Of a stretch of 64,000 bases of DNA, positions 16,987-19,900 are shown piece after piece; the stretch's first letter is position 1, and every line of letters starts with the position of its first letter. The notes under the pieces were generated by a model. It saw nothing but the letters and a program-made list of their open reading frames with translations. It made no database searches and was not told the origin of the DNA. A program made the position numbers and the translations under genes. The DNA comes from Rhea pennata (taxonomy: Eukaryota > Chordata > Aves > Rheiformes > Rheidae): NCBI RefSeq assembly GCF_028389875.1, contig NC_084665.1, positions 806,001-870,000 of the forward strand, in the 5' to 3' direction.

Positions 16987-19900
16987 CTATAAATAAAACA
17001 TAGATTCTTTTTAGCTACTTAAATTCATTCCAAATTACTGGAATTAGTAAAGTGGCTTCTAGGTAAATGCTGATGTAGAATCACTTAAGAATTTCTTGAA
17101 GTCTCTTTCTGCAGGGACAGAAAGCTGAGATGAGTGTTCAGCTGCTTGCAAGGTGTGCTCCTTCACTATTCCTGATCAGATCTGTGCAGGTGGCTTGCAG
17201 CTGAGCTAGATGTCCCAGCTGCAGACTTACTGTAATAGGACCTCAATGCGCTCCTCAAGTTCTGATCCAAGCAAAACTGCCTCATGGAGAGCAGTATTGT
17301 TGTGCCTGCATAGGAGAAATCAACAGTATACTTACTGCCTAAAGAAACTGTCCTGTTATGGTCTACCAAATTAAACTAAGGAAAATAATATTTAGATACA
17401 GAATATGCAAGGAGCTCCAGTGATTTCTTTGGTTGGCTTTCGTAAGATTAATCATATGTAAGTTGAATTTGATGGGAGAAGGAATTGGATGGAACAGCAG
17501 ACTTTTTAACCAAAATGTTAAGAAATCTTCAAAGCTGGCAACTGAAAGAACTGTGAATACTATTATCTTTGTTCAGGTGCATATTTTTTAAAAAATTACT
17601 TTTGAAAGTTTATCTTATAGGCTACAGATTTGGGGAGGGGCATGGGGGAGAATCAGTCCTCTCCAAAAATGGAGCACGAGTTCCTTTTGGCATGCCTGTT
17701 GAAAAGACCTGAGGCAGAGAATTCTTGCTCACAGTCCTGACTGCTGGTTGATATTACCACCTTTGAGCACAAGAATGGAGATTGCGTCAGTGTGTCTGTT
17801 ACAGACAGCTACTGTTAGAACAGTTTAGTCCTTGCTGTTGGTGCAGTTTGGGTCATCTCCCAGCTGCTTGGAGTTGATTGTCCTTACCCTCAGGAGAGGG
17901 AAGGTGAGATGTTAAAAGCTAGAAGGAGTCTTTGTCTTCCACCTTGCTTTAATATAATGCTAATTTGAGGAGTCTCTCCAAGGGGAGACTGTCTTGAGCA
18001 CTTTCAACCTGATGACAGCCAGTTGTATTGCAAGGATGTTGCCCCTGAAACATGAAGTCACATGCCAGGCTAATATTCATGCAGTAAACAGAGAGCTAGA
18101 AAGTGAAATTTAAGCTAGCGATAACTTACTCCATCGAACAATTGTTCTACCAAAGCAATTCTTCCTTCCTCGTTTGGACCCAGTTCTTTCAACAGTTGTC
18201 TGGACTCTGGCTGTGGAAACAAATCAGCAAGTAACATTTCACACAGTGAAACGTGAATATGCGGACCATGTTTTTACTTCTGAGTAAAGGTGGAAAATGC
18301 ACACAGTAGCATGGATGTAGCCGAGGGAAGGATGCAGTGTACCTGCGTAACTGAACCTCAGTGTTACTAACCCATGATATCTATGAAAATCTCTTTCCAT
18401 ACCTGAGGAAATGTTGGTTGACCCAGGCTAATGTCTTACTACTGAAGTCTTGATTTGGCAGATGCTTGTGTACGTGATTAGCTGTAGATCAATATGCTTA
18501 TCCAGGATTGTACAGCGATCAACTCACCACGATAAAACTAAGCATGGGCATAAGTTCTTTGCTGTACAATGAAAGTCTGAAACTTCCAGAACTTGTAGAA
18601 TTATTTTATTTAGAAAACGAATACTTCTTTTTAGTAGTAGTTACCTAAATATGTATTAACCTTCCCCTACCCCACTTTTCTTTCTTCCAATCTTTCTCTT
18701 TCCTTTGCCCTCCCACAAGCCCAATCACATGACCTACTGCTTTTTTATCCTGGGACTCAGGTATCAAAGCTCTTTACTCTTTTGCACCCATGGAGTTGAC
18801 CAAGTGATCCAAGCTGAGATTACTGCACATTTCCCTTTGAAAATTTGCCACGCTATTATTGACAATCCTTTCAGTAGGCTGTGCTTTCACAATATTTGGT
18901 CTCTAGTGGAAATAAAGCCTTGGTCCTTGCATTAAGGTAACCTTCAGTTGTGCTGATATATGAGCTGGATGGGAACACTGAGCTGACTCAAAAACTTGTG
19001 GTTGCATTAGATCAGCTTCCCCCGTCTAGTTCACACTATAAATGTGCAAAGTGGTTCTAGCCCAGCCAAGGGCATGTCCTGTGGAGCCAGAACCAGATAG
19101 TAAGGGTCAAGAGAAGATGATGTTGCTTCTGACAAAAGCTTTCAACAAAATCAGTCTGTAATGGTCTGTATGCCTAATGATGAATCAATAAAAGCAGAGT
19201 GGGTCCAAAATAACAGCAACAATCTAATTAAGGTCATAGAGAATAAGCACAAAGTTGGCTAGTTTCAGTTCTGTAATAAATGTCAGCCACCAATTTTTTC
19301 AAGATTTATATGAATTTGGACTTACGTCCCCCTTTCCCCCCCACTGTCAGTGTTCAAGCATTTTTTTTTTACTCTTGGATGCCTGCCTTCATGTTAGTGC
19401 AGCTCTGCTGCTAAGTTTTCCTGTACTGCTAAGATATACATACGGGGAGCTTATCTTCTTTTTCTGTAAGTTTTCTTGACTTTGTATGCTTTGTCTTGCC
19501 TCTTGAATGGGAAAGATTATGATTCTCTTCACCTGCTAGAAAGGGAAAGCAGTGTTAATTCAAAGCAAAGCCAGTATCTTAACAAGAACTCAGGGGTAGA
19601 GATCTGGAAATAATTTACCCCCCCCTCCCCCCCCCAAAAAAAATTATTTTGGATTGAAATGAAAGCAATGTTTATCATATTTCTACAAGAGAGAAAATGA
19701 TGAAATATTTGTTGCAGATCAAACTGGCTTAAACATAGATTTACATTCAGGCAGACTTCAAAACCTGCTATTTTAACACGAAGATTCAATGAAGTGTTGA
19801 GTTTTCTTTTTTCTTTTCTCTCCTTTTTTTTTTTTTAACTGGCTGCTGCTATTCAACAATTTTGACTCAGATTCATGGATTGTGCTGACCAAAATCCCTG

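Follow-up and report, generated by a model that had tools for sequence, protein, structure and literature searches.

In PDB entry 11xu, DZANK1 is present as four chains, and we take the sequence of chain G1 (11xu_G1, 752 aa) to agree closely with human DZANK1. By title, no paper on the 11xu complex was found among the matches listed for DZANK1 with cilia, structure, axoneme, or cryo. Functional information comes from yeast two-hybrid assays that, according to the excerpts of Dona et al. 2015 (PMC4617706), mapped the interaction with NINL to the ZNF_RBZ part of DZANK1. In mouse, the Ppcd1 rearrangement deletes Dzank1 exons 20 and 21, an effect that is confounded by Csrp2bp according to the excerpted report (PMC4910986). 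None of the titles among the DZANK1 literature matches listed concerns loss of this gene or an ankyrin-less form of it, and DZANK1 is absent from the gene-loss and bird literature among the matches listed; in three further papers, its only mentions are in the reference lists of PMC8754002 and PMC6522010 and in one table row of PMC5714495.

Here, we analyze DZANK1 in a 64-kb window, i.e., the whole stretch of DNA under study. In the sequence as given, the gene is truncated by two real nonsense codons that, as read from the DNA, deprive it of the ankyrin module as coding capacity.

Results

The minus strand of the window carries DZANK1 as 20 coding exons that join from 38911 to 16824 into 773 codons (Table 1). 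Eighteen of its 19 introns are GT-AG and the remaining one, after the third coding exon, is GC-AG; the corresponding donor (CAG/GCAAGT, GC donor at 36471-36476, minus strand) is the sole GC among 44 modelled donors. The product matches 11xu_G1 over residues 1-770 of the query and 1-750 of the chain (E 1.5e-242). Pfam places Fn3_assoc (5.5e-14) and DZR (E 6.6e-12) before the first stop, and Ank_2 (E 1.5e-11, stops entered as X) across it. Exon labels run from E2 to E20, including E5a and E5b, and equal the coding-exon number from E6 on. Identity to the PDB chain is low in four upstream exons (E5a, 32%; E5b, 46%; E15, 33%; E16, 17%), which were placed mainly by order, frame, and splice sites. 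The predicted structure of coding exon 2 has a mean pLDDT of 50. Scanned with 111 aa from coding exons 12-13, neither genome_contigs nor viral_contigs gave a confirmed relative.

Gene order in the window is KAT14 (CSRP2BP)-DZANK1-POLR3F-RBBP9-SEC23B, and the excerpts of PMC4910986 give the same order around mouse Dzank1, plus Znf133. The gene thus has the synteny of a DZANK1 orthologue and near full-length similarity with zinc ribbons and ankyrin repeats; what it lacks is an intact frame through the ankyrin module, interrupted by TAA at codons 663 and 744. The CpG island between DZANK1 and POLR3F is probably a shared two-way promoter of both genes. A second island (14300-15400; GC 0.69, CpG o/e 0.96) lies between the ends of KAT14 and DZANK1 and has no assigned gene, and a GC-rich stretch just before SEC23B (54300-55300; GC 0.78, CpG o/e 0.90) is probably the promoter island of that gene. 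Between POLR3F and SEC23B, a minus-strand fragment (52654-52450) matches PDB RBBP9 (E 1.8e-9) and continues in another frame, and a further short piece (53617-53585, minus strand) matches weakly (E 0.36); tblastn with the human protein as the query gave no convincing match to the rest of RBBP9 in 48001-55900. To judge from these pieces, RBBP9 looks like a relic in this window, and similar syntenic fragments are described for chicken, zebra finch, and turkey in the excerpts of PMC3380836. Rfam families gave 0 matches over the whole window at gathering thresholds, and the six tandem-repeat rows of the window include none at exon 18. An 18-base pattern representing the tail of bird CR1 elements had 0 matches.

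Table 1. Features of DZANK1 and its presumed promoter region (window coordinates)
Feature	Position	Strand	Remarks
DZANK1 coding exons 1-17	18130..38911	-	650 codons, no stop; Fn3_assoc domain and zinc ribbons
DZANK1 zinc-ribbon exons (coding exons 7-11)	27942..33799	-	All open
DZANK1 coding exon 17	18130..18210	-	Open, ends in phase 0
Exon 18 splice acceptor, weak	17864..17883	-	7/16 pyrimidines; rank 2 from the bottom of 44
DZANK1 coding exon 18, first ankyrin exon	17733..17863	-	131 nt, phase 0 in, phase 2 out; in-frame TAA at codon 663
First premature stop TAA, codon 663	17825..17827	-	Opposite Arg642 of 11xu_G1
DZANK1 coding exon 19 (ankyrin)	17231..17305	-	Open; ordinary splice scores
DZANK1 coding exon 20, last (ankyrin end and tail)	16824..16986	-	Natural TGA 16824-16826 (codon 773); premature TAA inside
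Second premature stop TAA, codon 744	16911..16913	-	Opposite Leu724 of 11xu_G1; absent from the initial annotation
CpG island	39300..40300	.	GC 0.66, CpG o/e 0.98; between DZANK1 (-) and POLR3F (+)

The initial annotation had reported an in-frame stop in the first ankyrin exon, a readable remainder of the repeat, open upstream exons, and two coding exons downstream. All of this holds. The frame of exon 18 is set by both neighbours, coding exons 17 and 19, and after the one residue (Leu) that use of its acceptor adds relative to 11xu_G1, the exon aligns to this chain without gaps on both sides of the TAA. The 17 upstream exons contain no stop in 650 codons, and coding exons 19 and 20 follow. 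Termination had been put at about residue 661; the truncation stands, but the stop is codon 663 and the last residue 662. The predicted fate of the domains, with zinc ribbons kept and ankyrin lost, agrees with DZR lying before the first stop and Ank_2 across it; a second in-frame TAA follows at codon 744.

Past this second stop, 9 of the next 11 residues are identical to 11xu_G1. Both stops appear to be recent because the residues that follow each are still clearly DZANK1. They lie 914 bases apart in an intron-bearing, syntenic copy of the gene, and no second copy of the ankyrin exons was found in the 64-kb window. The three ankyrin exons (123 codons) have 2 internal stops and the 17 upstream exons (650 codons) have 0, and no frameshift occurs in the ankyrin exons. 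Identity to 11xu_G1, counted without residues in gaps, intron-split codons, and stops, is 62 of 115 aligned residues in the ankyrin exons versus 349 of 612 in the rest (Fisher p 0.54). Two random lesions over 773 codons would both fall in the last 123 with a p of about 0.025, or 0.019 if the weighting follows the codons that a single step would turn into a stop, values that involve only two events and an ankyrin/upstream split picked after seeing the data.

Acceptors were scored against a weight matrix derived from all acceptors of the window minus the one being scored. The exon 18 acceptor, whose weakness the initial annotation had not noted, reached -3.0 (mean 7.5, sd 4.0, n=44), a score equalled or exceeded by 49% of the 9,494 AGs in the window; the lowest of the 44 is that of E5b, an exon of uncertain assignment. 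With a matrix from the 25 control acceptors only, exon 18 scored -5.0, under the lowest control (-2.0), with E5b at -10.5 and E4 at -4.1 among the other DZANK1 acceptors; such scores are rough, since 28% of random AGs match or exceed the lowest control. DZANK1 tends to score low in general, supplying all five of the lowest acceptors and all four of the lowest donors among the 44 of each type, mostly from upstream exons; the exon 18 donor is the fourth lowest.

A stop located over 50-55 nt upstream of the final exon junction is expected to trigger nonsense-mediated decay (NMD). The prediction of an NMD target in the initial annotation is justified for annotated splicing, in which the first stop precedes the last junction by 167 nt, but need not hold otherwise. 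Without exon 18, the product would have 657 residues and terminate 51 nt ahead of the last junction; without exons 18 and 19, the stop would fall within the last exon.

Our tentative reading is that the ankyrin module has recently been lost as coding capacity and that the zinc-ribbon part still appears maintained. Its main rival is early decay of the whole gene, DZANK1 being then a very young unitary pseudogene that is subject to NMD, makes no useful protein, and has kept its upstream exons intact for lack of time. This alternative is possible, if somewhat doubtful. It is consistent with the distance of the first stop from the last junction, with the coincidence of two stops and a weak acceptor, with ankyrin exons that have not dropped in similarity, as expected for a young event, and with the relic-like RBBP9 next door; loss of ciliary genes (WDR93 and CFAP46) has also been published for birds (excerpts of PMC10445033). 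Set against it are the CpG island remaining at the expected promoter place, the 650 upstream codons free of both stops and frameshifts, and a drift model in which a single neutral rate is unlikely to yield both two ankyrin stops and an undamaged upstream part. This model takes an ankyrin target of 366 nt and two assumed indel rates per substitution (0.05 and 0.1), with 80% of indels shifting the frame. At a neutral divergence of 5-10%, at least two ankyrin stops have a p of 0.16-0.42, but the 1,950 upstream nt, if also drifting, would escape stops and frameshifts with a p of only about 2e-4 to 2e-11; at 1-2%, a clean upstream part has a p of 0.007-0.18, but two ankyrin stops 0.009-0.034. Any drift of the ankyrin exons would have been short because they contain no frameshift (p 0.05-0.48 at 5-10%). 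The drift sum, which involves two events and a split chosen post hoc, favours relaxation of the ankyrin end alone and, together with the mapping of NINL binding to the zinc-finger part, leads us to favour ankyrin-only loss.

Three neighbouring genes served as controls: POLR3F (9 exons, 315 codons with the stop), SEC23B (11 coding exons up to the right edge of the window, 468 codons), and KAT14 (7 exons from the left edge, 617 codons with the stop), each with 0 internal stops. POLR3F was identified by a PDB match (E 3.7e-199) and Pfam, and SEC23B by Pfam; KAT14 is presumed from comparison with the human sequence only. Random sequence error is an unlikely source of the stops because the 650 upstream codons of DZANK1 and 1,400 codons of the control genes contain no internal stop. 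It is likewise unlikely, but less so than a rescue by splicing, that the stops are null alleles segregating in the sequenced individual, or base errors of the assembly, in a species whose DZANK1 is intact. A single assembly stands behind the sequence, and both lesions are stop codons in otherwise conserved exons without a frameshift, as this explanation would have it. Against it speak the spacing of the two stops (914 bases) and the absence of internal stops from 2,050 other codons, with a p of about 0.003 (post hoc) for random errors over the four genes both falling in the ankyrin exons; such clustering counts against errors, not against a segregating haplotype.

Very improbable is an alternative splicing pattern that splices out the stop while preserving a functional ankyrin module, for which the weak annotated acceptor would leave room. 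Other splice sites avoiding the TAA and keeping the frame, which the initial annotation had named as a finding that could overturn its reading, are scarce: acceptor use was modelled for 29 AGs from 18110 to 17736, counting the annotated site, and only 17743 and 17740 bypass the first stop in the correct frame. These two would leave exons of 11 and 8 nt, losing almost the entire first ankyrin exon, and translation would still terminate at the second stop. Six exon-skip combinations also end early: in four of them translation stops 7 residues beyond the newly formed junction, and in two, which omit exon 19 alone or exon 17 alone, at the first stop. None of the 29 acceptors or six skips modelled restores the ankyrin module, and within this set splice rescue has no support.

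Intronic polyadenylation was considered separately. There is no AATAAA on the minus strand from 18130 to 15685, and the one ATTAAA in the intron preceding the stop exon (17953) is among 33 on that strand of the window and gives no evidence for such an event.

Recoding of both TAA codons by readthrough or RNA editing, which the conserved protein sequence on both sides of each stop might suggest, is hardly credible for two separate UAA codons that would both need recoding, that are followed by different bases (A and G) in contexts, UAA-A and UAA-G, for which we know of no readthrough motif, and that stand opposite ordinary residues in the PDB chain.

Discussion

The initial annotation left the choice between an ankyrin-less DZANK1 and a gene starting to decay. 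Both options stand and are strengthened by the second stop. Two stops, their frame, open upstream exons, and a weak acceptor are what can be read directly from the DNA, and from these we infer the following order of events under the preferred reading, ankyrin-only loss. A nonsense codon in the first ankyrin exon would have made residue 662 the last of the protein, past the Fn3-like domain and zinc ribbons. Sequence downstream would then have been free to drift and may have acquired the second nonsense codon, in the last exon; decay of the stop-exon acceptor is perhaps part of the same downstream drift. Upstream exons would have stayed under selection, and a product of about 657-662 residues would be made. 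Skipping of the weakly spliced stop exon could allow partial escape from NMD, as its stop would lie at the edge of the 50-55-nt rule, and joint skipping of exons 18 and 19 may offer another escape.

Such a protein, ending at 657-662, could keep NINL as a partner because binding has been pinpointed to the zinc-finger part. A further step, and a rather speculative one that we consider no better than doubtful, is that this lineage keeps a selected ankyrin-less DZANK1 that binds NINL via its zinc ribbons, with the weak acceptor favouring the skipping that escapes NMD. Several observations count against ankyrin-only loss. The ankyrin exons are as similar to 11xu_G1 as the rest of the gene and have no frameshift; annotated splicing creates a standard NMD trigger that would remove the product; and E5a, E5b, E15, and E16 are weakly conserved in a gene whose splice scores are generally low.

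If such a selected, NINL-binding form exists, this locus would amount to a deletion experiment made by nature, testing which half of DZANK1 supports dynein-linked transport in cilia and photoreceptors. A lineage that naturally lacks the ankyrin half would reveal the essential part of the protein. If there is only early decay, DZANK1 would be one more cilium-linked gene among lineage-specific losses.

The event is of a known kind, a lineage-specific truncation or unitary pseudogene, of which it is a new example. With the loss of WDR93 and CFAP46 in birds, as described in the excerpts of PMC10445033, it shares lineage-specific loss of a cilium-linked gene via gene-disrupting changes; those cases concern other genes and are backed by transcripts and about 500 vertebrate genomes, whereas a single window and a possibly partial loss are at issue here. 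Compared with DZANK1 of 11xu_G1, the window gene shows a near-full-length match, with Fn3-like domain, zinc ribbons, and ankyrin end arranged alike, and differs in its two ankyrin-end stops, one additional residue at the exon 18 acceptor, and one residue fewer in the last exon. Mouse Ppcd1 likewise removes the 3' end of Dzank1, its exons 20 and 21 probably corresponding, on our inferred numbering, to coding exons 19 and 20 here. As far as the excerpts on Ppcd1 go, that allele is an inversion with deletions and fusion transcripts in a mouse model, with Csrp2bp and Znf133 also affected, whereas the lesions described here are point lesions of a natural lineage.
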